This document shows positions 13,584-56,030 of a DNA stretch of 64,000 bases, one piece after another. The translations under genes and the position numbers were made by a program. The notes under the pieces are model-generated. The model worked only from the letters and a program-made list of their open reading frames with translations, was not told where the DNA came from and searched no databases. Positions within the stretch are counted from its first letter, which is position 1; the number at the start of each line of letters is the position of its first letter. The stretch lies in the NCBI RefSeq assembly GCF_900156105.1, contig NZ_FTMS01000002.1, positions 62,001 to 126,000 of the forward strand, in the 5' to 3' direction. This DNA is from Alkalispirochaeta americana (GTDB lineage: Bacteria; Spirochaetota; Spirochaetia; DSM-27196; Alkalispirochaetaceae).

Positions 13584-13674
13584 CCGCTCTCTGGCCGATT
13601 ATTCTATATAGGGTATCGGTTTGCTTTCATAGAACCATAACCCCGAGGCGTGGTAGAATTATTCGCAGGGGAGA

Positions 13675-16600
13675 ATGAAAAAGTTGATTCTGCGCCGCCT
13701 TCCGGCGGTTCTTCTGTTGCTACTTATCTCGGTTTCTCTCCCCGCGTCGGGACGCAGGGAGGACCCGGTTCGTCGTGCCCGGGGGCTGGTGGCCGAGAAC
13801 AGAATCAACGACGCGATTCTCCTCCTGGAGCAGACCATTCGGGATGATCCCGAGCGAATTGTAGAAGCCGAAGCGCTGATGCGCGCAATCCGGGGTATCC
13901 GGGGTGAATACAATGTTCTTTTCGAGCTTCTGATCCAGAACCTGATTGATAATCCCGATGATATTGCCAGAACCCTTGATATAATTGACAGAATGGAACA
14001 GCTTGACGAGTTTCCCAATGCCCGAGTGCTTCAACAAGTTGAGGACGCCAGGGTTATAGCCCAGCTTGCCTACGACCGGAACCTGGTGGATCAGGCCATG
14101 AGCGAGGCACGGGAACTCTTCCAGGCGGGGCGTCACGCCGAGGCCGCCAGAATTTACCTGTCCCTGGGTGATCTTCAGCGGGATCGCTTTGAGGGGCGGG
14201 GATACAGCGATATTTTCGTAAACCAGGTCGATAGAGCACTGGTTCGTCTCGATGAGGCGGGCGGGAACTTTCTGGGGCTGATAGATGTGTACACCCAGGT
14301 ATCACTCCCCCTGACGGCGGCTGCTTCCGAGGGGCCGGTGCCGCTGGAGGCTGACTTTTTTGCCGAGTATCTTGCCCAAGGCCAGGAGCTCCACGGGGTG
14401 CTTGAGCGGGCCCGGTCTCTGTCGCAGGATGTCCTTGTCCTGCGTTCCCAGGTGGCCCTACAGTTTCCTGATGATCCTGTGGACTGGTATCTCAATTTTC
14501 AGGATATCTTTCTGCGGGGGCGTCCTGACTTGAGGAATCAGGAGGGGCTGGTGGCGGTCATGACGGAATTCTACGATGCGCCCCTGGTTGAGGCTTCCCG
14601 CATGAGCCGGGAGCAGGCCCTGGAAGCGTATGGGGAAGGGAATGACTTTTTGGGGCGCGATGAACTACCCCAGGCGATTGAAGCCTATCAACTGGCTGCA
14701 GAGGCTGCTCTGGCTTGGGAGCGGCTCGAGGAGGTGCGGATTGGCCTCTTCGAACCGGATCAGCCTGCTCGCGAGATCATTGCTGACCGCCCGTCCCGAG
14801 AGGCGGGGCCACCTCTGACAGCCCGGTTCAGGAAAGAGAGCGCCCGCTATCTGGCTGATTTGGCCGGGACGCTTCAAAATCTTCCGGTGATCCGGGAGGA
14901 TGATCGGGCTTTGGCAGAGTTGCTGCGATCCCGTAAAGAGGAGATCCAGGAAGTAGTGGATCGTCTGACAGGGCAGGAGGAGGCCTGGAAAAACCGGGTT
15001 GAGACGATCGGGCAGTTTCCAGAGGATTATCTGGCCCAGATGGATCATTCCCCTCTGGAGGAAGTTCTCGATGAGGCAGCCCGTCGTCTGGAAGGGATGG
15101 TCTCGAAGACGCAACGTCTGGCCGTGGAGGTTTCGCTCCTTGAGACCGCCGAGGTTCCCCTGGTTATTGCCCGATCCCGGGATGTTCTTGCCGAGACATC
15201 GCTCCTGCTGGAAGGCGTGGAGGAGCCCCTGGAGGAGGATCTTCCCGACGAAGCGCCCGGTGAGGCGGTTCGTATAGCCCGTTACCCCGACGAGGCGGCG
15301 CAGCGCCTGGAGATCCTGGAGGGAGTTCTGGCCAGGGCCCGGGAAGAGGTGGAGCGTGCCCGGGAGGGACTGGAGGGTGATCGGGAGTACGTCAGTGGCA
15401 GTGCCCCTGTCCAATCAGAGCTCCTGCGCCTGACGGTTCTGCGACAGGATCTGGACGACCTCGCGGCCCAAGGTGGAGAACGTTTCGAAGAAGCTGAGCA
15501 ACTGATCGCCGAAGCCCGAATCCAGGAGTCAGAAGGGTTTTCCCGCATAGCCGACGCCCGGGCCGCCATCGCAGCCATGCAGATTGATGCGGCCCGGAGA
15601 AACTGGGAGGCTGCCCGCGATGCTTTCTTTGATTCTCTGGAGCTTCGGGAACAGGATGCTCTCAGGACTACTGCGGACCAGGAGATTGCTGCGGTGGGTC
15701 AGGAATTGCTTGAGCTTGAGAACGTTCTGGTGGTTCAGCGTGTGCGTGAGCTTCTGACCCGGGCCGAGGCGCAATACAGCCAGGATGAATATGTAGCTGC
15801 CCGGGATACCCTCATTCAGGCACAACAGACCTGGGAACAGACGAATATCGAGTCCAATAGCGAAATCGACCGTCTTCTGATCCTTGCAACGGCCGCGCTC
15901 AGCCTTGAAGAGGGACGGGAACTTTCTCCTACGGATCCTCTCTATCCCGTTTTGGGAAACTATCTCAGTCTTGCCCGGGAAGACTACAACCGGGGAGTTC
16001 TTCTCTTTCGTCAGGGCCGTAAGGAAGATGCCGACCGGCTCTTCGATCGTTCCATCGAGAATCTCAGAAATGTCCGGGATGTGCGTCCTCTTAACTGGGA
16101 TGCCCGTATCTTGGAGCTGCGAATCGTCCAGCTTCGTGATGCCGATGAGTTCGAAGATATCTTTGCAACCCGCTACAACCAGGCTCTGGCTCGCCTTGAT
16201 CAGGCGGGGCCCCTGGAAGTCTACAGCGAGCTGGAGGTCCTCGCCGAGATCAACCCCAATTATCCGGGGCTCCAGACGCAACTTCGCCGCCTGGAGATTG
16301 CCCTGAATCTCCGGCCGGATCCGGCAGACCAGCAACGGATAGCCCGGGCCCGCCAACTCTATGGTGAGGCGCAACGTCTTGCCCGGGGATCCCGGGATCA
16401 GGTGGTGGTGGCGGTCTCGCTTCTTGAGGACGCTGTGAATCTGCACCCCGATAATCGCGATGTGCGGTTCCTCCTGGATGAGTTGCGTATTCGTCTGGGA
16501 GGGAGGGCCACGGCGGCACTCTCCACGGCCGATGAGCAGCAGTATCGCCGGGCAGAGACGCTGTTTCAGCAGGGACAGGTTGTGCAAGCCCTGGCAATCA

Positions 16601-41526: not shown

Positions 41527-42135
41527 ATGGAAACTCAGTTACAGGACATCATTGCAAAGATCCACGATGAGGGTGTGAAGGGCGCAGAAGAACGAGCGCA
41601 CTCGATCATTGAGCACGCTGAAAAACAGGCTCAGGCTCATCTCAAGAAGGCCAAAGCCGAGGCTGCACAGATCATCAAGGACGCTGAACAAGAGACGGCC
41701 CGGATGCAGAGTGCTGGGGAAGCGGCCTTGCAGCAGGCTGGTCGGGACCTTCTTTTGTCGGTTCAGAAAGAGCTCACCGCACTCTTCGAGAAGGTGGCAA
41801 AAGACACGGTGGCCGAAGCGCTCTCTCCGGAAGCCGTAGCCACCATGATCGCCTCCCTGGTGGAAAAATGGCATGCGGCAGATAAAAATGATCTGACCGT
41901 GCTTGTTCCTGAGGCAGATCGGGACCGTCTGGAGAAGGATCTTCGCTCCCGCTTGGGCAAAACCCTGGCTGAAGGCGTGGAAATTCTGCCCAGCCGTGCC
42001 GTCTCTGCCGGATTCCGAATCGGTGTGAAAGAGGGTGCTGCGTTTTACGATGTGACCGACGGAACACTTACGGACCTTCTGGCGGCCTATCTGAACCCGC
42101 GTCTGACCGAGCTCATGCGCAACGCTGGCGAGTAA
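41527..42135 (+). CDS. atpE: V-type ATP synthase/ATPase subunit E
   Basis: A peripheral stalk subunit, 202 residues. The first half is a long charged helix (AEERAHSIIEHAEKQAQAHL, KKAKAEAAQIIKDAEQE) that makes the stalk coiled coil. The second half is the globular head (RLGKTLAEGVEILPSRAVSA, FRIGVKEGAAFYDVTDG) that contacts the catalytic hexamer. GGGAG precedes the ATG. This is the first gene of the operon. Confidence 0.93.
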   Translation: METQLQDIIAKIHDEGVKGAEERAHSIIEHAEKQAQAHLKKAKAEAAQIIKDAEQETARMQSAGEAALQQAGRDLLLSVQKELTALFEKVAKDTVAEALSPEAVATMIASLVEKWHAADKNDLTVLVPEADRDRLEKDLRSRLGKTLAEGVEILPSRAVSAGFRIGVKEGAAFYDVTDGTLTDLLAAYLNPRLTELMRNAGE

Positions 42136-42148
42136 GGGAGAAAGAGCG

Positions 42149-42703
42149 GTGAATCGTTATTACTACACCGTCGCATCACTCCCAGCGGTGCGGTTTGAGG
42201 AGGCGCCGTTTCTCTCGGAAGAGAACTTTTTGGAGATGTGTCGGGTTGAGGCAACACCGGAGGATCTGGAATACATAGCCTCCGCAAGATTGTTGCCTGA
42301 GACCCTGGACACGCCTGCTGAAGGAGTGCTCGAGCGGTGGAACAGGGCCGTGAGGGAGTTTCGCTGCCACGCAGCGCAGCTTCGTGCCCAGAATCTTGGG
42401 TGGGAGGCAGATCGCCTGCCTCGTCCCGAAGGAATTGATGCATCCATGGCGGAGCGAACCCGTTCAATCGTGAACGAAGATACTCCGCTGAAAATGGAAA
42501 ATGCCCTTATGCGATGGCTCTGGCAAGTGGCCGAAGATCTTGAATGCGGGCATCATTTTGATAGGGAACAACTGGTTGTATACCATTTGAAACTGCAGCT
42601 TGCTGCCCGGCGCGCCCGCCTGGCTGACAGCTCTCGGGGCGGTGAGGAATACGACCGCCAGTACGAGACTGTTGCACACTCACTCATGGAGATAGCCACA
42701 TGA
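42149..42703 (+). CDS. DUF2764-family protein of the V-ATPase operon
   Basis: A 184-residue soluble protein. It starts NRYYYTVASLPAVRFEEAPF and is mainly helical, ending [17 protein letters not shown]. It sits in the position where archaeal and Thermus operons have subunits C and F, and spirochaete V-ATPase operons such as that of Borrelia have a hypothetical gene at this place. I assign DUF2764 from the N-terminal YYxxASLP pattern and this context. It may be a central-stalk connector, but this is inference. The GTG start has GGGAGAAAGAG upstream, and the stop overlaps the atpA start (ATGA). Confidence 0.8.
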   Translation: MNRYYYTVASLPAVRFEEAPFLSEENFLEMCRVEATPEDLEYIASARLLPETLDTPAEGVLERWNRAVREFRCHAAQLRAQNLGWEADRLPRPEGIDASMAERTRSIVNEDTPLKMENALMRWLWQVAEDLECGHHFDREQLVVYHLKLQLAARRARLADSSRGGEEYDRQYETVAHSLMEIAT

Positions 42704-44472
42704 CAACAGGAAAAGTAGTCGCCATTAATGGAAATATGGTGAGCGTTGTCGTCGAGGGCGATGTATCGCTGAACGAAGTTGGATACATCGTCGTTGATGA
42801 CAAACGGCTCAAGGCAGAGGTGATCCGGATTCGGGGGAACCAGGCGGAGCTTCAGGTTTTTGAAGTGACCAAAGGAGTCGCCGTAGGAGATGCTGTCGAG
42901 TTTACCCAGGAGCTCCTGGCGGTTGAACTCGGGCCGGGATTGCTCACGACAATCGTCGACGGGCTCCAGAATCCCCTGCCGGAACTCGCAGAGCAGTCGG
43001 GCTTCTTTCTGGAGCGGGGACTCTATCTGCAGGCCCTTCCTCGCGATAAAACATGGAGTTTTACTCCCACGGCAAAACCGGGTGACACTGTCCTGCGGGG
43101 TGATCAGCTGGGTCACGTCCCCGAGGGTATCTTTGAGCACTGGATCATGGTGCCCCTGGGAATGTTCGATACCTACACGGTGGAAACGATCGCCGAGGCG
43201 GGAGATTACACCGTAGACCAGACTGTGGCCACTCTCAAGGACAGCAAGGGCAATCTCCACGAAGTCACCATGGTCTTTCAGTGGCCCGTAAAACGAGCCA
43301 TCGATGCCTACGCCGAACGGCTTCGTCCTGAAGAGCCCATGGTTACTACCTTGCGGATTGTTGATACCTTCCTGCCTGTCGCCCGGGGTGGTACATACTG
43401 TATCCCCGGCCCCTTTGGAGCGGGCAAGACCGTGCTCCAGCAGATAACCAGTCGTCATGCCGAGGTCGACGTGGTTATCATCGCCGCCTGCGGCGAGAGG
43501 GCCGGTGAGGTTGTAGAGACCCTTCGGGAGTTCCCTGAGTTGACAGACCCCCGCACGGGGAAATCTCTCATGGAACGGACAGTTATTATCTGTAACACCA
43601 GCTCCATGCCCGTTGCTGCCCGGGAAGCCTCGGTGTATACGGCCGTAACCATCGCCGAGTACTACCGGCAGATGGGCCTGAACGTTCTTCTTCTGGCCGA
43701 TTCCACCAGCCGCTGGGCCCAGGCCATGCGTGAGATGTCGGGTCGTCTCGAGGAGATCCCCGGCGAGGAAGCCTTTCCTGCATACCTTGAGTCGGTTATC
43801 GCAGCCTTCTACGAGCGGGCAGGACTGGTGCGCCTCAAGAACGGATCAACCGGGTCTGTCACCATCGGCGGAACGGTAAGTCCTGCCGGTGGTAACTTCG
43901 AGGAGCCTGTCACCCAGGCTACCCTGAAAGTAGTAGGCGCTTTTCACGGACTTTCCCGGGGTCGTTCCGATGCACGGAAATACCCCGCCATTGATCCCCT
44001 GGACAGCTGGAGCAAATACCGGGGAATTGTCGATCCCGGTATGACCGAGTACGCTCGAAACGTCCTCTTCCGGGGCGATGAGGTAGGGCAGATGATGAAG
44101 GTCGTCGGAGAAGAAGGAACCGCCGTGGACGACTATATCCTCTTCCTGAAGGGGGACTTCCTCGATGCAGTTTACCTTCAGCAGAACGCTTTCGACCCCG
44201 TCGATTCCTCGGTCAGCACCGAGCGGCAGCGGCATATCTTTGATCTGGTCTTCCATATCATTGGTAGCAAGATCGTTATCGAGAGCAAAGATGAGGCCAG
44301 GGACTTTTTCTACAAGTTGAGGCAGAAGTTTATCGACTACAACAGCGCCGAATGGCAATCCGATGCGTTCAAGAACCTGGAACAGGAAATGAGGGATCTC
44401 TTCTCCACCGTTTCTTCAGAACTTGAGCCCAAGGCGCAGGAAGTGTACCGGAATCGGGGGAAATATGCGTAA
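42700..44472 (+). CDS. atpA: V-type ATPase catalytic subunit A
   Basis: The catalytic subunit of the V1 head, 590 residues. The P-loop GPFGAGKT lies at about 238-245, with the arginine-rich [17 protein letters not shown] and the Walker [21 protein letters not shown] downstream. The roughly 90-residue non-homologous insertion of V-type A subunits ([20 protein letters not shown]) sets it apart from F-type beta. Start and stop overlap the neighbouring genes (4 bp and 8 bp), so stoichiometry is likely set by coupling. Confidence 0.97.
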
Positions 44473-45790
44473 AGTATACAGCAGGATTGAATCAATCGTC
44501 GGAAACGTCATCTCCGTGAAAGCCGAGGGCGTGCGCTACGGTGAGTTGGCGATGGTCTCCACCCGCTACGGGGAATCTCTCGCTGAGGTTATCCGGATGC
44601 GCGGTGACGAGGTAAGCCTCCAGGTCTACGCGGGAGGTCGGGGGATCTCCACGGGTGACGAGGTCCGTTTTACGGGTCATCCCATGCAGGTTTCTTTCTC
44701 GGACAACCTTCTGGGACGTGTTTTTAACGGTTCGGGTCAGCCTCGGGATAACGGTCCTGAGCTGACCGAGGGACTGATCGAGATCGGGGGGCCTTCGGTG
44801 AACCCGGCAAAGCGAATTATCCCCAGGAACATGATCCGAACAGGTATCCCCATGATCGATCTCTTCAACACCCTGGTGGAGAGTCAGAAGCTGCCGATCT
44901 TCAGTGTCTCCGGTGAGCCCTACAACCCGCTCCTGGCGCGAATCGCCATGCAGGCCGAGGTCGATGTGATTATTCTGGGAGGGATCGGTCTCAAGTACGA
45001 TGACTACCTCTTTTTCAGGGATACCCTGGAAGAGGGCGGAGCCCTCTCGAGAACGATCTTCTTTGTTCATACCGCCAGCGATCCCATCGTTGAGGCCTTG
45101 CTGGTTCCCGATGTGAGCCTGGCCGTAGCCGAGAAGTTTGCCCTGAAGGGAAAACGGGTTCTGGTGCTCCTTACGGATATGACCAACTTCGCCGACGCCA
45201 TGAAAGAGATCGCCATCACCCAGGAACAGGTTCCCTCCAACCGGGGATACCCGGGGGATCTCTACAGTCAGCTGGCGGCGCGCTACGAGAAGGCTGTAGA
45301 CTTCGAGGGCGCCGGTTCGATCACCATTCTGGGGGTCACCTCGATGCCGGGCGACGATGTAACTCACCCCGTTCCCGACAACACCGGTTACATCACCGAG
45401 GGGCAGTACTATCTGAGAAACGGACGGATCGAGCCCTTTGGATCGCTTTCCAGGCTCAAGCAGCTGGTGAACGACAATACTCGCGATGACCACCGTGCGC
45501 TCATGGACGGCATGATCAAGCTCTATGCAAACTACAAGGAAAGCCAGGAGAAGAAGTCCATGGGATTTCACATGTCTTCCTGGGACGATAAGCTCCTGAA
45601 GTTCGGCGAGATCTTCGAGCGCACCATGATGGACCTTTCGGTGAACATTCCCCTGGAAGAGGCGCTGGATCGAGGGTGGGACATTCTTGCCCAGTGCTTT
45701 GAGCCCCAGGAGACGGGGTTGAAAACAGAGCTGATCAAGAAGTTCTGGCCGGCTGACAGCGCCGGTTCGGCCCGGGAGGCGACAGCCTGA
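44465..45790 (+). CDS. atpB: V-type ATPase subunit B
   Basis: The non-catalytic nucleotide-site subunit, 441 residues. Key blocks are [35 protein letters not shown], and [14 protein letters not shown], a degenerate P-loop without the GKT that is normal for B subunits. [20 protein letters not shown] carries the arginine-finger-side region. The ATG at 44465 ([10 protein letters not shown]) overlaps the atpA stop by 8 bp; an earlier in-frame ATG adds residues unlike the family. Confidence 0.97.
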
Positions 45791-46383
45791 TGGTCAAGCT
45801 GACCAAAAACGAACTGAAGAAACAAAAGGACGCGCTCAAGCGGTTTCAACGCTATCTGCCGACGCTGCAGTTGAAGAAGCAGCAGCTCCAGATGGTAATC
45901 CGCCAGGCTGAGCAGGAATACGACGTCCTGGTCCGGGAGAAAGAACAGATCCGGAAAGATCTGGATCGTTGGGTAGGAGTCTACGCTGACGGTCTGGATC
46001 TTACTCCCTACGCGGAGGTAGAACGGATCGAGACCTCCCAGGGGAATATCGCGGGAATCGATATTCCGGTTTTTGAGGATCTGCAGTTTGTTGACCGGCG
46101 TTGGGATCTTGTCACGACGCCGCTGTGGGTTGATCAGGGAGTCAAAATGCTTCGTTCCATGCTGGAGGTGGAGGCGAAGCTCCTTCTTCTCAAGGAACAG
46201 TTGCGGCTCTTGAGCGAAGAACTTCGAACAACCACACAACGGGTGAACCTCTTTGAAAAGGTAAAGATTCCCGAGACCAAGGATAATATCCGGATGATCC
46301 AGATTTACCTTGGGGATCAGCAAACTGCTGCCGTTGTTCGCGGCAAGATTGCAAAGCGCAATCTTCTAAAGGCGGCATCATGA
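45790..46383 (+). CDS. atpD: V-type ATPase subunit D
   Basis: The central rotor shaft, 197 residues. The N-terminal helix (VKLTKNELKKQKDALKRFQR) and the C-terminal helix (TTTQRVNLFEKVKIPETKDN) form the antiparallel coiled coil that turns inside the A3B3 head. The start shares a base with the atpB stop (TGATG), and the stop overlaps the atpI start (ATGA). Confidence 0.95.
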   Translation: MVKLTKNELKKQKDALKRFQRYLPTLQLKKQQLQMVIRQAEQEYDVLVREKEQIRKDLDRWVGVYADGLDLTPYAEVERIETSQGNIAGIDIPVFEDLQFVDRRWDLVTTPLWVDQGVKMLRSMLEVEAKLLLLKEQLRLLSEELRTTTQRVNLFEKVKIPETKDNIRMIQIYLGDQQTAAVVRGKIAKRNLLKAAS

Positions 46384-48230
46384 TAACACAGATGAAGAAG
46401 ATCTCCGTTATAACGATTCGCTCTGCCCGCACGGAAACACTCCAGGCCTTGCGTGACCTCGGAGTGGTTCATGTCTTTACAGATCGAACCGACGTCGATT
46501 CCGGAGATCAGCTGAGAGAACAGAAAAATCATATCGATCGTGCCATCTCGATCATCCCGTCGCCGGAGGCCAGGCCCAAAGCGGCTGAGGCTCTTCACCA
46601 GGGAGATGCGGCGGTGGACCCTGCCCTGGATATTGCCCAGGAACTGATTGAATCTGCAGACCGGCGGGCTCAACTGGAAGACGAGCAGGATCGTCTTCAG
46701 CGGGAACTTGAGCGCCTGGAGCCGTGGGGAGAGCTGGATCCCCAGGTCTTTGCAGATTTGCGGGACCGGGGAGTGGAGGTGCGCCTTTTCGAGGCTCCTG
46801 CCGATAAAGCCCGGGAAATTCTTTCGGAGCTGCCCAACGTCACGGTGTTGAGTCAGAACAAGCGCCTTGTGCGGGCTGTAGCCGTCGCTCTCGGGTCGGA
46901 CCGCTTTCCTGAAGGCCTGGCCGGGGTGCCGCTTCCTGATCGCTCCACTGGGGAGATCAGGGAAGCCCTGACCGAGCTGGATCGGGAGATGGCGGAGATC
47001 GATGCTGAAGCGGAAGCCCGTCAGAAGGATCTTCCTCTCCTGCTGGCTGCTCAGGAGCAACTGGAGCAGGATCTCGAGTTTGCCCGGGTGGCCCAGACCA
47101 TGGAACACGATCGGGCCCTGGAGTGGATTACCGGTTTTGTCCCCTTCGATCAGGTCGATGCGGTCACATCTGCGGCCAAGGAGAATGGCTGGGGAGTAGT
47201 GGTGCGTGATCCCTCGAAGGACGAGCACGTTCCCACGCAGTTGCGAAATCCCAAGCCTGTCCGGATTATCCAGCCCGTCTTTGACCTGCTGGGGACCGTT
47301 CCCGGATATCGCGAGCTGGATATTTCCTTCTTTTTTCTCCTGTTCTTCGTGGTCTTTTTCGCGATGATCATCGGGGATGCCGGGTACGGAGCTATCCTTC
47401 TGGGAGGGACGATCTATACTGCGCTGAAGGCGCGTGCTGCCGGACGGCCTCTTGGGAACGGTTCGATCCTTATGATCGTCCTGAGTTCTGCCACGGTGGT
47501 CTGGGGGGCGATTACCGGCAACTGGTTCGGCTATGCTCCCTTCAACAACCTGCCGGTGTTCCGTTCTCTTGTTATCCCTGGCATCTCGATCGATAGCGAG
47601 ACCAGTACAGAGATGATCCAGTATATGTGTTTCATCATCGGAACGGTGCATCTCTCGATAGCTCATATCTGGAAGTTCCTTCGTGGACTCCGGGAGCGCC
47701 CGCGTATTGCTGCTCTGGCGCAACTGGGCTGGCTCTCCATGGTGCTGGGGCTCTACTACCTGGTGTTGCAGCTGGTGATCGATCCCGAGAAATACCCCAT
47801 GCCCGATTTTGCGCTCCCTCTCATAGCGGGAGGACTCGCTGCGGTCATCATCTTCGGGGAGCAGCAGGAGGGCAAGGGTTTTCTGTCAGGAGTAGGGCGG
47901 GGAGTCGCTGGAATCATTACTACCATACTTGATAGTATCAGCGCATTCTCGGATATCATTTCCTACATCCGGCTCTTTGCAGTAGGACTGGCAACGCTGG
48001 CAATAGCCGAAGCGTTCAACAGCATGGCAGGAGGAGTCGCGGAAGGTCTTGGCGGTGTCGGCGGCATCGTAGCTGCTGTGCTGATATTGTTCCTGGGACA
48101 CACCCTGAACCTGGCTATGGGGGCTCTCTCTGTGGTCGTTCACGGTGTACGGTTGAATATGCTCGAGTTTTCCGGGCATTTAGGAATGGAATGGACCGGG
48201 GTGGAGTACACCCCGTTCAAAACGCGTTAG
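46380..48230 (+). CDS. atpI: V-type ATPase membrane subunit I (subunit a)
   Basis: The stator membrane subunit forming the ion half-channels, 616 residues. The N-terminal half (1-310) is soluble with coiled coil and binds the stalks. The C-terminal half has about eight membrane helices starting at FFFLLFFVVFFAMIIGD. The helix AFSDIISYIRLFAVGLATLA carries the essential arginine (SYIRLFAVGL). GHTLNLAMGALSVVVHGVRL is the conserved last-helix block. It is coupled upstream by ATGA and is followed by atpK after 27 bp. Confidence 0.96.
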   Translation: MITQMKKISVITIRSARTETLQALRDLGVVHVFTDRTDVDSGDQLREQKNHIDRAISIIPSPEARPKAAEALHQGDAAVDPALDIAQELIESADRRAQLEDEQDRLQRELERLEPWGELDPQVFADLRDRGVEVRLFEAPADKAREILSELPNVTVLSQNKRLVRAVAVALGSDRFPEGLAGVPLPDRSTGEIREALTELDREMAEIDAEAEARQKDLPLLLAAQEQLEQDLEFARVAQTMEHDRALEWITGFVPFDQVDAVTSAAKENGWGVVVRDPSKDEHVPTQLRNPKPVRIIQPVFDLLGTVPGYRELDISFFFLLFFVVFFAMIIGDAGYGAILLGGTIYTALKARAAGRPLGNGSILMIVLSSATVVWGAITGNWFGYAPFNNLPVFRSLVIPGISIDSETSTEMIQYMCFIIGTVHLSIAHIWKFLRGLRERPRIAALAQLGWLSMVLGLYYLVLQLVIDPEKYPMPDFALPLIAGGLAAVIIFGEQQEGKGFLSGVGRGVAGIITTILDSISAFSDIISYIRLFAVGLATLAIAEAFNSMAGGVAEGLGGVGGIVAAVLILFLGHTLNLAMGALSVVVHGVRLNMLEFSGHLGMEWTGVEYTPFKTR

Positions 48231-48257: not shown

Positions 48258-48692
48258 ATGAATATTGGTGAAATTGGAGTCGGATCGGCTCTTGCCTTTG
48301 CAGCGATGGGTTCCGCCCTGGGTGCAGGAACGGCGGGTATGGCAGCTGTTGGAGCGTGGAAAAAGGCCTTCATTCAGAACAAGCCTGCTCCCTTTCTTTT
48401 GATCGCCTTCGTTGGTGCACCGCTCACGCAGACGATCTACGGTCTCATCCTCATGAACGCTTTGGCAGCAGCTGCAGCGGCGGGGGCGGATCCGTGGTTG
48501 CTCATCGGCGCGGGTATTCCCGGTGGTATCGCCATGGGATTCTCTGCCTGGTACCAGGGAAAGGCTGGTGCTGTTGCTTCCGATGCCCTGGCTGAAACCG
48601 GCAAAGGTTTCGGTAACTACCTGCTTGTCCTTGGTTTGGTAGAGACTGTGGCGCTTTTTGTCATGGTTTTTATGCTCGGGCTCGTGGGCTAA
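48258..48692 (+). CDS. atpK: V-type ATPase proteolipid subunit K (c-ring)
   Basis: The rotor-ring subunit, 144 residues with four membrane helices arising from a duplicated hairpin. The ion-carrying Glu129 lies in LGLVETVALF. Thr57 and Gln58 (PLTQTIYG) and Gln100 (WYQGKAGA) line up by eye with the Na+ ligands T64, Q65 and Q110 of Enterococcus hirae NtpK, with E129 matching E139. This suggests a Na+-coupled enzyme. The first hairpin has no carboxylate, as in other K subunits. AAGGAG precedes the ATG. It is the last gene of the operon; a terminator follows. Confidence 0.95.
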   Translation: MNIGEIGVGSALAFAAMGSALGAGTAGMAAVGAWKKAFIQNKPAPFLLIAFVGAPLTQTIYGLILMNALAAAAAAGADPWLLIGAGIPGGIAMGFSAWYQGKAGAVASDALAETGKGFGNYLLVLGLVETVALFVMVFMLGLVG

Positions 48693-49806: not shown

Positions 49807-52662
49807 ATGAACAGGATCTTTGTAAAAGGCGCGCGGGAACACAACCTCAAAAATATCGACGTTTCCCTTCCCAGGGATTCTCTCATCGTAGTGTCGGGCA
49901 TGAGTGGCTCGGGCAAGTCTTCGCTGGCTTTTGACACGATTTTTGCCGAGGGGCAACGGCGCTATGTGGAGTCCCTCTCGGCCTATGCCCGGCAATTTCT
50001 GGGACGAATGGACAAGCCCGAGGTAGATTACATTGAGGGGTTGTCGCCGGCCATCTCTATTGAGCAAAAGACAACAAACCGGAACCCTCGGTCAACGGTG
50101 GGAACAGTAACGGAGATCTGGGACTATTATCGACTTCTCTTTGCCCGCATCGGCATCCCCCATGATCCTCGAAGCGGGAAACGGGTAGAGAAGCAAACCG
50201 TTGACGAGATCATTGATCGTATTCTGGCGTTGCCCCAGGAAACCCGCCTTGTAATTCTTGCTCCGGTTGTGCGAGGGCGTAAAGGCATCCACCAGCGGGT
50301 CCTCGACGATGCGCGCCGAAGTGGTTTTATCAGGGTCCGCATTGATGGGGAGATCATCTCCCTCGATGAGGATATTCAGCTGGATAAAAAGCGGGCTCAC
50401 TCAATTGAAATCGTGGTTGATCGGGTAAAGATACGCCCCGAACAGCGGGAGCGGATTGTGGAATCCCTGGAATCGGCTCTGGATGCGGCCGGGGGAACGG
50501 TGATTATTCTCTATGAAGATGAGGAAGGGCAAAATCATGAGAAGTCTTTCTCGCAACACTACGCCTATCCCGACAGCACCGTAACCTTTCCCGAACTGGA
50601 ACCGCGACTCTTCTCTTTTAACAGCCCCTTCGGAGCCTGTGAAGCCTGTTCCGGTCTGGGGGTAACGAAAGAGTTTGATCCTGATCTCATTATGCCTGAC
50701 AAAAGTCTCTCCTTCGATGAGCATGGGATAAAACCCTATAATCCGAAGGCCCGCTGGTACCGTACCCGCTTTCAGGCTCTGGCCGAGGTATTGGGGTTCT
50801 ACCTGAACCAGCCCCTGGAGACGATTCCACCGGAGATCATGGAGCAGATTCTCTACGGCACTACGGAACGCCTGCGCTATACCTACGAGAAACCTGGTGA
50901 CGAAGGGAGTGTCGAATATCACCGCCAGTTCCCGGGGATTATTCCCGACCTGGAACGCCGCTACCGGGAAACAGCATCCACACAGATGCGCGAGTGGTTC
51001 GAGTCCTTTATGACCGAGCGGATCTGTCACGAATGCCATGGTCAGCGGTTGCGGCCGGAGTCCCTGGCGGTACTGGTTAACAGAAAGAGCATTCAGCAGA
51101 TTGCGGCGCTCTCCGTGACGGAGGCGATCGACTTCTTTGATTCCCTGGAACTCACAGAAAACGAAAGCAAGATCTCTGCCGAGATTCTGAAGGAGATCCG
51201 GGCGCGGTTGTCCTTCATGCAAAGTGTGGGGCTGGAGTACCTCACCCTGGATCGAAACGCGGCAACCCTCTCGGGAGGTGAGGCTCAGCGTATTCGCCTG
51301 GCGACGCAGATCGGGTCGCAACTTATGGGAGTGCTCTATGTTCTCGATGAACCCACCATCGGCCTTCACCAACGCGATAATGAACGCCTTCTCAAAACTC
51401 TCCTGCACCTGCGTGATCTTGGAAATACGCTTTTGGTGGTGGAGCACGACGAACAGACCCTTCTTGCCGCAGATCACGTTGTTGACCTGGGTCCCGGCGC
51501 CGGAGTTCACGGCGGTGAAATCGTGGCAGAGGGGACTCCTCGGGAGCTCATGGATAATCCCCGCAGCGTCACAGGACCATACCTCTCGGGAGCAAAGAGT
51601 CTGGCCGTCCCGGAAGAACGTCGTCCGGGAACGGGGGGCGTAATCCGCATAGGAGGAGCCCGGGAACACAACCTTCAGGGAATCTCGGCAGAATTTCTTT
51701 TAGGAGCGATGAACGTCATCACCGGAGTTTCAGGATCCGGAAAGAGCACGCTTCTCTCGGACATTCTTTGTCCTGCCCTGCAGAACCGTGTGAACCGGCG
51801 GGGCGGACAGCATCGGGAAGGGGCCTACGAGAGCCTGGAGGGCTGGGAGGAGATCGACAAGATCATCGATATCGATCAGAGCCCCATTGGCCGGACTCCC
51901 CGTTCCAACCCCGCCACCTACGTGGGGCTCTTTACCCCGATCAGAGAACTCTTTGCAGAATTACCCGAGAGCAAGGCGCGGGGCTACAAGGCCGGGCGGT
52001 TTTCCTTCAATGTCAAAGGTGGTCGCTGTGAGCATTGCCAGGGGGCGGGAACGATCAAGATCGAGATGCATTTTCTCCCCGATGTCTATGTCACCTGCGA
52101 TGTATGTCACGGAAAACGCTTTACCCGGGAAACCCTGGACATCCGGTACAAGGGAAAAAATATCCATGATGTGCTGGAAATGACCATTGACGAGGGGCGT
52201 GATTTTTTCTCGGCAATTCCCCAGATCAAACGGCGTTTGGATACCCTCTGTGACGTTGGCCTTGATTATATCAAACTTGGCCAAAGCGCGCTCACTCTGT
52301 CCGGGGGAGAAGCCCAGCGGGTGAAGCTTTCCCTGGAACTGAGCAAGCGAAGTACCGGAAAAACGCTCTATATTCTGGATGAACCCACCACGGGCCTCCA
52401 TTTTGCCGATGTGGAAAAGCTTCTGGAAGTGCTGAATCTCCTGATTGATAAAGGAAACACCGTAATTCTGATCGAGCATAATCTGGACGTCATTCTTCAG
52501 GCCGATCACCTGATCGACTTGGGCCCGGAAGGAGGAAACCGGGGAGGCCAGGTGGTTGCCACGGGAACCCCCGAAGAAGTCTCCAGAAAGGGCGGTTCTC
52601 ACACAGGCCGGTTCATCGCCGAGGCCCTGGCTCGTCGGGAACAGGGGAAGCTTGTCTCCTGA
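49807..52662 (+). CDS. uvrA: Excinuclease ABC subunit A
   Basis: The damage-recognition ATPase of nucleotide excision repair, 951 residues. There are two ABC modules: the first P-loop GMSGSGKSS (near 31-39) and signature TLSGGEAQRIRLA, and the second P-loop GVSGSGKST (near 640-648) and TLSGGEAQRVKLS. The C-terminal zinc finger has CEHCQGAG and CDVCHGKRF (about 741-770). The first zinc site is only partly kept: the CEAC pair is present, but I do not see the other CxxC. The start MNRIFVKGAREHNLKNIDV is canonical. No Shine-Dalgarno; TACTGT lies 8 nt before the ATG. The stop overlaps the lptD start (TGATG). Confidence 0.97.
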   Translation: MNRIFVKGAREHNLKNIDVSLPRDSLIVVSGMSGSGKSSLAFDTIFAEGQRRYVESLSAYARQFLGRMDKPEVDYIEGLSPAISIEQKTTNRNPRSTVGTVTEIWDYYRLLFARIGIPHDPRSGKRVEKQTVDEIIDRILALPQETRLVILAPVVRGRKGIHQRVLDDARRSGFIRVRIDGEIISLDEDIQLDKKRAHSIEIVVDRVKIRPEQRERIVESLESALDAAGGTVIILYEDEEGQNHEKSFSQHYAYPDSTVTFPELEPRLFSFNSPFGACEACSGLGVTKEFDPDLIMPDKSLSFDEHGIKPYNPKARWYRTRFQALAEVLGFYLNQPLETIPPEIMEQILYGTTERLRYTYEKPGDEGSVEYHRQFPGIIPDLERRYRETASTQMREWFESFMTERICHECHGQRLRPESLAVLVNRKSIQQIAALSVTEAIDFFDSLELTENESKISAEILKEIRARLSFMQSVGLEYLTLDRNAATLSGGEAQRIRLATQIGSQLMGVLYVLDEPTIGLHQRDNERLLKTLLHLRDLGNTLLVVEHDEQTLLAADHVVDLGPGAGVHGGEIVAEGTPRELMDNPRSVTGPYLSGAKSLAVPEERRPGTGGVIRIGGAREHNLQGISAEFLLGAMNVITGVSGSGKSTLLSDILCPALQNRVNRRGGQHREGAYESLEGWEEIDKIIDIDQSPIGRTPRSNPATYVGLFTPIRELFAELPESKARGYKAGRFSFNVKGGRCEHCQGAGTIKIEMHFLPDVYVTCDVCHGKRFTRETLDIRYKGKNIHDVLEMTIDEGRDFFSAIPQIKRRLDTLCDVGLDYIKLGQSALTLSGGEAQRVKLSLELSKRSTGKTLYILDEPTTGLHFADVEKLLEVLNLLIDKGNTVILIEHNLDVILQADHLIDLGPEGGNRGGQVVATGTPEEVSRKGGSHTGRFIAEALARREQGKLVS

Positions 52663-55600
52663 TGCTTCGCCCGGTCATCTTCTTCATTGTGTTGACCGCT
52701 CTGTGTGCGCTCGTTAATCCGGGGGCAATTGTCGATGCAGAGGAAGTGACCGAAACCGGATATCCCCCCGTGGCCGAAGGGTCTCCCGAAACACCGCGTG
52801 ACGCAGCGGAGGAAGATCTCCCTCCGCTGCTGAAAAGAACGCTTCTTCAGGATCTGGAGACCGCTGAACAGGGGGAGCTTCTCGACTGGGCCTCAACGCT
52901 GGGACTCAGCACCCGGGGATCCCGGCGGCAGATTGAAGACCGGATACTCCAGCATTACCAGGTCCGGCGAAGCCCCGCCGAACCGACACAGACCGATTCT
53001 GCCGGATCGGTTCTCCGCATTCAGCGGGCCCGGGGAACACGATTCTTTGACATGGAGCAGGTGGACGAGCGAACCCTTCGTTTGTCGGGCGGGGTGTTGC
53101 TGACCGTGGAAGAGAAAGGTGTGTTTCATTCCATAGAGGCCGAGGAGATTCTCATCAATACGGATCAATCCCTCTTGAACGCTCGTGGAAATGTTGTCTA
53201 CACGGTCCAGCGCGAGGACGGGGACGAGCGATTCCGGGGTGATTCGGTGCTTTTCCAGATCGACACCTGGGAAGGTGTCTTTATCCAGGGGGTAACCGAG
53301 TCAATCCAGGAGGTCGACCAAAAAGATGTAACTTTTTTTGTACAAGGTGAGAAGATCTCTCGCTCCCCCGGGGATATTCTGGTTGTCGAGGGAGGGACGA
53401 TTACCTCATCGCGGGCAGACCCACCCAACTGGAGCCTCAAGGCCGACCGGATCTGGATCTTTGCTCCCGGTGAATGGGGGTTGCGCCACGCCGTCCTCCA
53501 TGTGGGGCGAGTTCCCATGTTCTATTTTCCCTATTTTTTTCTTCCTGGAGACAAGCTTTTTTTTCATCCCGTGGCGGGGTCCCGCACTCGGGAGGGGTCC
53601 TTTATTTTTACCACCACCTACTTCTATGGCGAGCGGGAAGAGAGCGATGCCCCCTTTTCGATCATGAGTCTCACCGAAGCTCCTCGGGACTCGCAACGCG
53701 AGAGACAGGGGCTTTTCCTCCGAATCCCCGACTCACCACCCGAGGAAGAGACCCGTCCGGACTGGATGCTGAAAGTTATGGCCGATCTCTATACACGTCT
53801 CGGAGGATATCTGGGCGTGGCTGCATCGATGCCCAAACTGGGCCCTCTTTCCCGTTTTGACTGGCGGCTGGGTTTGGGTATGTCGCGAAACATCTATTTT
53901 GAAAACGGCCGCTACTCAAGCTACTACGTAGAAGAGGGCGAAGCCCGGCAGCACTGGAATCAAGGGTTTTTTCTGGGAGTTCCCGTGCCCTTCCGCTACG
54001 AATCCAAGGTTCATCTCCAGGGAGTTGCGGGAACGGTCCGGTTCAATCTTGATATGATGATGCTTTCAGATACAGAGTTCCACCGGGACTTTCATGATCG
54101 GAGCGAGAAAATCGACTGGGGAGCTTTTCTGAGCCCCTCCTCTGAAGACAACACATCGGAGAGTGCCACGGTGAATTCCATAAACTGGAACGCAGACCTC
54201 ACCTGGAACCCCTCGGTGAGTCATCTTCGCCCCTGGGTTCGATCTCTCTCGATTTCTCCTGCCCGGGCTCGTGTCGCCTGGCGAAGCAAGGCCGACAAGG
54301 ATCTGCCCGAGGCGGTTCTTCGTCCCCAGAGTGATAAGAGTCCCGAGGAGCAGTTTTTTTATCCCCAGTCCGTTACGTTTCCCGATCTGGGTCTGACCGT
54401 GGAGGGGGAGCTCTTCCGACTCCGCGAGGGAAGCCTTCGGGAAAGAACCCCTTCGACTGACGCAGAAGAGGAAAGGCAGGAAAAGAGCCCGCAGGACCGC
54501 GCTCCTGCCTTGAGGCCCCCCTGGGAAGAGGAGAGGGAAGAACCTGATCCCCGGGATGACGAGGATTTTCGCCTTCCCGACAGAATTGGTTCCATGAGAG
54601 GTATCAGGGATGCCTCGGCCGGAGAAATTACCCTTACATACCGGTTGAACCCCACGGTTCGACAGGATCTCTTCACCGATAGCGGGGCCTGGGACACGGC
54701 GGAAGACGTGGGGTTGGACTGGCATTACCGCACCGTGCAAATCCGCAACCAGGGGCGGCTTGTCCTGAACGCCCGGTCCCGGGATCGTATCGTCACCCTG
54801 AACACAACCCTCTCGGCCGATCAGCGCCACCAGTCGCTGGAAATTATGGGTGACATGAGCGATGCCGAGCGGAACCGCCAGGAACTCAACACCTACCGGG
54901 GCCGGAGTTTCACCGCCACCCAAGCAAGCCAGATCGATCTTTTCCCCCTGCGGGGCTACGAAAGCCTGGAGAGCAGCTCCCTGCGCTATTCCCTTTCCTC
55001 ACGAATGTACGACCATCGTTTTTCCGAGCTCGATTCTTCGGGTGACCCCGTCTACCGCGGTCGATGGGGTCGCTGGGACAGCTCCGATATTACTCGCCAC
55101 CAGACCAGGGCCCTGCTTCAGTGGAAGGTCTGGTCGGGGACTCAAACCCTGACAGCTACGTCGGACCTGCCTCCCCGGGACAGGACCTATCTGGGCGAGC
55201 TGAGACTGGAGAGGGGGTTTTTGACTACCCGTTTGTCCGGGGGCTATCGGGAGCGGAATGATCGGTGGAAGGCTGATAACTTCGTTCAGAATCACACCCT
55301 TTATTTTCCGGACCAATCGCTCCGGCTGGAGCAACGCCTTGAGCACGACCCGGACAGGACCGAGCTGGTCCTCTCGCGCAGCACACTTCGGCTGGGACCA
55401 TTGCAGACTCAACTTACCGGCCGACGGACTGTAGGCTATGATTTTGACCCTCTCCAGGGCTGGGTCTCTGATCAGAGCGATGATTTTCACTGGACCCGCC
55501 TGACCGTGGACCTTCGGGGCAAGCAGCAGGTGCAATGGTGGCATCGCAGGGTAGATCTGACTCTGGACGGAAGGGTGACTCTGGATATCGATTTGCAGCG

Positions 55601-56030
55601 TTATACTTCAAGCAGTCTCCTGATCGACTACGGAGCAACCTTCTCCATACACCGGTTTCTGGATTTTCGCATAGCCGCACGAAGCCGCAACGATCTTCTC
55701 TATCAGTATGTTCCCTCCCTGGCTGACGAAGTGGAGCGGCCTCGTCGAAATGTGCTTTCCGATCTTGCCGACAGTCTGAGCCTCTTTGATCGGGAGGCCC
55801 GGGAAGAGACTGCCTTCAAGATCGATTCCTTGAGCATTTCTGCTATTCACGATCTTGAGGATTGGGAGCTGGAGTTTGGCTATTCCGGGCGACCCGAGCT
55901 GGAAACGGTGGGGGGGCAGTCCCGCTACGAATGGCGAAGCGTGGTGACTATTTTCTTTCGATGGCGTCCCGTGCCGGAGATAAAGAGAAACATACGCATC
56001 GAAGATGGAGAGATCGATTTTGTCGACTAG
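52662..56030 (+). CDS. lptD: LptD/OstA-like outer-membrane assembly protein with SAP-like motif
   Basis: A 1122-residue exported protein. After a signal peptide (to about residue 26), residues 68-100 (GELLDWASTLGLSTRGSRRQ, then IEDRILQHY) look like a SAP helix-turn-helix motif. Then comes the OstA/LptA-like beta-jellyroll (about 115-260). Next is the LptD hallmark LKADRIWIFAPGEWGLRHAV, with HVGRVPMFYFPYFF at the start of the barrel. The remaining 800 or so residues are amphipathic strands for a large barrel with long acidic loops (for example near 590-640). LptD inserts lipopolysaccharide in the outer leaflet. The final strand ends with aspartate rather than an aromatic residue. It is coupled to uvrA by a one-base overlap. 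Confidence 0.8.
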   Translation: MLRPVIFFIVLTALCALVNPGAIVDAEEVTETGYPPVAEGSPETPRDAAEEDLPPLLKRTLLQDLETAEQGELLDWASTLGLSTRGSRRQIEDRILQHYQVRRSPAEPTQTDSAGSVLRIQRARGTRFFDMEQVDERTLRLSGGVLLTVEEKGVFHSIEAEEILINTDQSLLNARGNVVYTVQREDGDERFRGDSVLFQIDTWEGVFIQGVTESIQEVDQKDVTFFVQGEKISRSPGDILVVEGGTITSSRADPPNWSLKADRIWIFAPGEWGLRHAVLHVGRVPMFYFPYFFLPGDKLFFHPVAGSRTREGSFIFTTTYFYGEREESDAPFSIMSLTEAPRDSQRERQGLFLRIPDSPPEEETRPDWMLKVMADLYTRLGGYLGVAASMPKLGPLSRFDWRLGLGMSRNIYFENGRYSSYYVEEGEARQHWNQGFFLGVPVPFRYESKVHLQGVAGTVRFNLDMMMLSDTEFHRDFHDRSEKIDWGAFLSPSSEDNTSESATVNSINWNADLTWNPSVSHLRPWVRSLSISPARARVAWRSKADKDLPEAVLRPQSDKSPEEQFFYPQSVTFPDLGLTVEGELFRLREGSLRERTPSTDAEEERQEKSPQDRAPALRPPWEEEREEPDPRDDEDFRLPDRIGSMRGIRDASAGEITLTYRLNPTVRQDLFTDSGAWDTAEDVGLDWHYRTVQIRNQGRLVLNARSRDRIVTLNTTLSADQRHQSLEIMGDMSDAERNRQELNTYRGRSFTATQASQIDLFPLRGYESLESSSLRYSLSSRMYDHRFSELDSSGDPVYRGRWGRWDSSDITRHQTRALLQWKVWSGTQTLTATSDLPPRDRTYLGELRLERGFLTTRLSGGYRERNDRWKADNFVQNHTLYFPDQSLRLEQRLEHDPDRTELVLSRSTLRLGPLQTQLTGRRTVGYDFDPLQGWVSDQSDDFHWTRLTVDLRGKQQVQWWHRRVDLTLDGRVTLDIDLQRYTSSSLLIDYGATFSIHRFLDFRIAARSRNDLLYQYVPSLADEVERPRRNVLSDLADSLSLFDREAREETAFKIDSLSISAIHDLEDWELEFGYSGRPELETVGGQSRYEWRSVVTIFFRWRPVPEIKRNIRIEDGEIDFVD

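Follow-up and report, generated by a model that had tools for sequence, protein, structure and literature searches.

The V-type ATPase operon of Alkalispirochaeta americana raises the question of which ion its rotor ring carries and what the answer says about its host. We addressed this in a window of 64,000 nucleotides (the whole stretch of DNA analyzed; NCBI RefSeq assembly GCF_900156105.1, contig NZ_FTMS01000002.1, positions 62,001 to 126,000), which belongs to a 3.31-Mb genome in 65 contigs with a completeness of 95.6%. The gene for the K subunit, the proteolipid of the rotor ring, lies at 48258..48692 on the forward strand, is preceded by an upstream AAGGAG, and runs from an ATG start to a TAA stop. 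Its product of 144 residues scores 215.7 bits against NCBIfam NF005174 (cut-off 127) and 46.8 bits against Pfam PF00137 (cut-off 24) and is the single K match in a search of the whole genome. A predicted model (mean pLDDT 92) places helices at residues 4–39, 48–74, 79–114, and 118–143. Among named relatives, Alkalispirochaeta alkalica DSM 8900 is the closest, with 99% identity in K and 86.3% in the DNA across the operon.

K is the last of seven genes in a compact operon of the order E-DUF2764-A-B-D-I-K, in which all genes lie on the forward strand and intergenic gaps range from −14 to +27 bases. Subunit E of the peripheral stalk (41527..42135) is matched by NF002424 at E 6.9e-53 with 179 bits, under the cut-off of 241, and is followed by a DUF2764 protein of 184 residues (42149..42703) that is taken up below. 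The catalytic subunit A (42700..44472; NF003220, 776 bits, cut-off 470), subunit B (44459..45790; NF002555, 759 bits, cut-off 431), and the central-stalk subunit D (45790..46383; NF002565, 233 bits, cut-off 189) come next. The membrane stator, subunit I (46380..48230), is recognized by Pfam and NCBIfam and harbors a SYIRLFAVGL motif, Arg531 of which we take to be the essential Arg. All seven genes occur in this order in 36 of the 50 related loci of at least 9 kb listed, the remaining loci being incomplete or showing no E or X match by tblastn. Searches of the A. americana genome with the C/d (PF01992) and F (PF01990) families gave no match up to E 10. Recognizable C and F subunits mark the ntp operon, not Na+ coupling; since DUF2764 is found here instead of a PF01992 or PF01990 match, we do not class the operon as ntp-type.

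The preliminary description of this locus placed Thr57, Gln58, Gln100, and Glu129 of the proteolipid at the positions of T64, Q65, Q110, and E139, which coordinate Na+ in the NtpK ring of Enterococcus hirae. The four residues are confirmed in the translation of the open reading frame, and a profile–profile alignment (hhalign) of 21 K relatives against seven NtpK-type proteins returns exactly this pairing (probability 98.2%, E 2.7e-14, 129 columns). Thr57-Gln58 (ACG and CAG, 48426-48428 and 48429-48431) align with Thr64-Gln65, the helix 2 ligands; Tyr61 (48438..48440) with Tyr68, which stabilizes the ion-binding Glu; Gln100 (CAG, 48555..48557) with Gln110, the helix 3 ligand; and Glu129 (GAG, 48642..48644) with Glu139, the principal ion ligand in helix 4. 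The numbering of T64, Q65, Y68, Q110, and E139 was fixed by NtpK residues 14–152 from PDB 2bl2, and K proteins from this phylum with close similarity to NtpK (matching 2bl2 at E 1.2e-18) provided a bridge. NtpK has a fifth ligand, contributed by Leu61 through its backbone carbonyl (PMC2359735), and this residue aligns with Ala54. Identity over the alignment is 33/130 (≈25%); by a rough figure, identities placed at random would cover all four ligands with p = 0.0036 and the four ligands plus Tyr with p = 0.0008. NtpK is absent from the single-sequence phmmer matches of K and is found weakly by the 21-sequence K profile (E 0.052); given this weak direct match, the register rests on the profile–profile alignment, on the conserved TQxxYG, QGK, and ET motifs, and on the fold.

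The K model superposes on 2bl2 with a Z score of 16.9 and an rmsd of 2.1 over 138 residues, as a structural alignment of a prediction, and Gln58 and Gln100 fall on ligand columns of the hhalign alignment. The subunit has one ion-binding Glu, in helix 4. The same model scores at least as high against the c subunit of the H+ ring of rat (Z 18.3), and because both ring types score alike, the fold was rejected as a discriminator between Na+ and H+. The predicted fold thus confirms the four-helix architecture and says nothing about the ion.

We then asked how widely the ligand set is distributed. Gln58, Gln100, Glu129, and Tyr61 are found in 75 of 75 K proteins (that of the window and 74 relatives), a set biased toward the signature because the 74 loci were recruited by short patterns covering the ligand stretches; position 57 is Thr in 40 and Ser in 35 of these proteins. 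A further 40 loci obtained with the family HMM are less biased but were picked among the better-scoring matches listed, and another 30 loci contributed 13 that fit the K profile, the other 17 being left uncounted and taken as F-type c or more distant V-type subunits. Altogether, 136 distinct K proteins from several phyla were compared, and 135 have Thr/Ser-Gln-Tyr-Gln-Glu (by source, 71/71, 18/18, 36/36, and 9/10, plus the window protein); L152 and L171 (partial matches) and 20 duplicate sequences were left out (156 to 136). These proteins span presumed Borreliaceae with genomes of ≈1 Mb and presumed treponeme-like genomes, as well as Verrucomicrobiota, Omnitrophota, Aminicenantes, and Fibrobacter MAGs. 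Within the phylum, the K family is matched in 304 of 392 genomes at E ≤0.001 and above the cut-off in 215 of 392. The sole exception to the signature, L162 (G380:C52, near 13663-14067), lies on an NtpK-like branch and has Met at the Gln110 position; with this substitution of a ligand, its ion specificity may differ.

The genome context was surveyed for other rotary ATPases and for Na+-type pumps. No F-type a-subunit (PF00119) was found in the A. americana genome, so that the V-ATPase is probably its only rotary ATPase; in the class, an F-type a-subunit is present in 38 of 297 genomes, a sample different from the 392-genome phylum set, with which it yields no joint count. A genome of the same genus, G490, differs from that of A. 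americana in encoding an F-type ATP synthase a-subunit (C1:37320-37943). The A. americana genome harbors an rnfBCDGEA cluster, all six products of which score above their NCBIfam cut-offs, and two genes for the β subunit of Na+-translocating decarboxylases (TIGR01109; 502 and 524 bits, cut-off 191). An nqr-like cluster is also present; of its products, that for subunit D alone passes a Na+-NQR cut-off (PRK09292), and most of the nqr-like proteins score under their curated cut-offs. A membrane pyrophosphatase (PF03030), present in five of seven genomes searched, was not found in that of A. americana. Two smaller features accompany these genes: a second rnfC/D-like cluster beside the standard rnf (L199:2200-5724, on G000:C1), whose RnfD is highly diverged (1.9e-14 for its best match in NCBIfam), and 28-residue decarboxylase β fragments of identical score (G000:C22:16652-16735 and G000:C28:2-85), which suggest that the gene is repeated or split where contigs end.

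The full ligand set with its Tyr, the lack of a detected F-type a-subunit, and the other Na+-type pump genes together support the Na+ reading well, and we consider it likely that this V-ATPase is Na+-coupled, as a prediction from the ligand set and the genome context; in this part the preliminary description stands. The ring could instead retain its Na+ ligands and yet be coupled to H+, or to both ions, in the cell, which we regard as unlikely. Na+-ATPases can transport H+ when Na+ is lacking, and H+ enzymes can still have some of the Na+ ligands (PMC2359735); the H+ ring of Thermus, for instance, retains a Gln aligned with Gln100, and the predicted fold of K resembles H+ rings equally. The portion of the Salinispira pacifica genome paper drawn on here leaves both the ion and the direction of its V-ATPase open (PMC4511686). 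What argues against H+ coupling is that the complete set, with the Gln65 equivalent and the Tyr, is nearly invariant in the family, whereas c of the mammalian H+ ring (8xli) differs at three ligand positions, with Ile-Ile in place of Thr-Gln and Val at the Gln110 position. The earlier statement that H+-coupled rings usually lack the full set held in the one four-helix H+ ring examined, and the Gln65 position is described as occupied by an aliphatic residue in predicted H+ enzymes (PMC2359735). Availability would also favor Na+: A. alkalica requires sodium and grows at pH 8–10 and 2–12% NaCl (PMC13286283), conditions under which Na+ would outnumber H+ by many orders of magnitude.

A reading along the lines of the preliminary description, in which the ligand set is a special adaptation to saline or alkaline conditions, is very improbable. 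In its favor, the genus is haloalkaliphilic, and many MAGs that hold close relatives of K are apparently of soda-lake sediment (as judged from isolate names). Against it, all but one of the 136 proteins have the same residues, host-associated and freshwater-type lineages (habitats judged from record titles) among them, and these residues are published for the gut bacterium Bacteroides fragilis (PMC10197588). Because the signature is nearly universal in the family, we rejected it as a marker of habitat, and the conclusion drawn from it about habitat is unsupported. The ligand set is, as far as these sequences tell, an inherited family trait and no special adaptation. The guess of a saline or alkaline host is nonetheless true of the genus, as the sodium requirement and alkaliphily of A. 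alkalica illustrate. A Na+ riboswitch was considered as independent support for Na+ coupling, the V-ATPase genes of enterococci and clostridia being described as carrying one. It was rejected as such, since the window contains no Na+ riboswitch, nor any Rfam family at all, and 37 of the 74 related loci, searched likewise, contain none; apart from tRNAs, these loci gave just a single Guanidine-II and a single Flavo-1.

If the ring is Na+-coupled as predicted, each K subunit would hold a single Na+ in a site bounded by helices 2, 3, and 4, with Glu129, Gln100, Thr57, and Gln58 as side-chain ligands and Tyr61 securing Glu129. ATP hydrolysis would turn the rotor and thereby export Na+ by way of subunit I; in the reverse mode, Na+ influx would drive ATP synthesis. 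The V-ATPase, Rnf, the Nqr-like complex, and the Na+-decarboxylases would then have a Na+ circuit in common. As to the usual direction, our guess, to which we lean slightly, is net export of Na+ during fermentation; the E. hirae enzyme is described as reversible in vitro and is thought to be a Na+ exporter in vivo (PMC12018189).

The second gene of the operon bears on how such an enzyme would hold together. We propose that the DUF2764 protein is probably a shortened C/d (AC39) subunit, the link between rotor and central stalk, as suggested by its predicted fold and by longer relatives that match both families. In a VIA-align search with a model built from 32 relatives including the window protein (pLDDT 91), all five rows with Z of at least 5 are yeast or Thermus C/d subunits (Z 5.7–6.7 over 162–167 residues, which is below the safe level of the tool for helical proteins), the next row being at 4.5; Foldseek alone gives E 1.3. 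Among the longer relatives, L209, a spirochaete protein of 284 residues, matches DUF2764 at E 1.9e-40 and, over the same residues, AC39 with 39.8 bits (cut-off 29). L211 and L212 likewise match both families, with AC39 under its cut-off, and L210 matches DUF2764 with no AC39 match in the protein search and 30.2 bits to AC39 in the whole-genome search. Profile alignment of the window DUF2764 family to the longer, L209-like type reaches 98.1%, whereas its direct alignment to classical AC39 gives no match (probability 0.5%). The window protein itself matches only DUF2764 in Pfam at E up to 1, with no AC39; a DUF2764 profile search of the PDB returned no V-ATPase match, and none of the DUF2764 proteins scores above a cut-off in NCBIfam. 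A shortened C/d subunit would explain how the rotor is joined to the catalytic head without recognizable C/d and F subunits, a point that the portion of the B. fragilis paper drawn on here leaves open together with the function of DUF2764 (PMC10197588).

The E. hirae NtpK ring (2bl2) and the K subunit have the four-helix architecture, the four side-chain ligands, and the Tyr in common; the A. americana operon differs from the enterococcal system in its low K identity, in having DUF2764 instead of Pfam F and AC39 matches, and in the lack of a Na+ riboswitch. Closer in operon type is the V-type ATPase of B. fragilis, with seven genes, DUF2764 second, a K subunit with the NtpK Na+ residues, and Nqr present. 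It is termed putatively Na+-translocating and essential for deoxycholate fitness (PMC10197588, preprint v2), and it differs in that Bacteroides has an F-type enzyme as well. Chitinispirillum alkaliphilum, compared by its published description, is an anaerobic haloalkaliphile with V-ATPase genes listed as KIDBACE, for which Na+ coupling was deduced in 2016 from a motif in the K subunit, beside Rnf and oxaloacetate decarboxylase; it belongs to the phylum Fibrobacteres and, unlike A. americana, has a membrane pyrophosphatase (PMC4814513). The ligand test itself was applied to bacterial V-ATPases by Mulkidjanian et al. in 2008, with Borrelia and Treponema described as V-type only (PMC2359735), and the 2023 B. 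fragilis study drew the same Na+ conclusion for the same DUF2764 operon type from an NtpK alignment (PMC10197588). The Alkalispirochaeta enzyme would accordingly be one more, ordinary member of the Na+-type V-ATPases already described.

A broader proposal, which we put forward tentatively and rate somewhat below an even chance, is that the compact seven-gene family is ancestrally and generally Na+-coupled, that it represents a minimal rotary ATPase in which F is absent and C/d has shrunk to DUF2764, and that, as the sole rotary ATPase in most Spirochaetia including pathogens, it places their ATP-linked ion traffic on Na+. Were Na+ coupling true, sodium would be the ion of ATP-driven pumping in this soda-lake spirochaete and, to judge by the family, in most Spirochaetia, which would fix the ion for their other transporters; Na+ dependence would be the direct test. 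In a further genome of the set, an open frame of 495 residues (G245:C193:59042-59452) with two PF00137 matches may encode an extended rotor subunit or a fused one. Elsewhere in the window, the forward-strand frame at 52662-56030 encodes a protein of 1122 residues that has no Pfam match at 1e-5 and resembles an outer-membrane protein of the LptD/OstA type.
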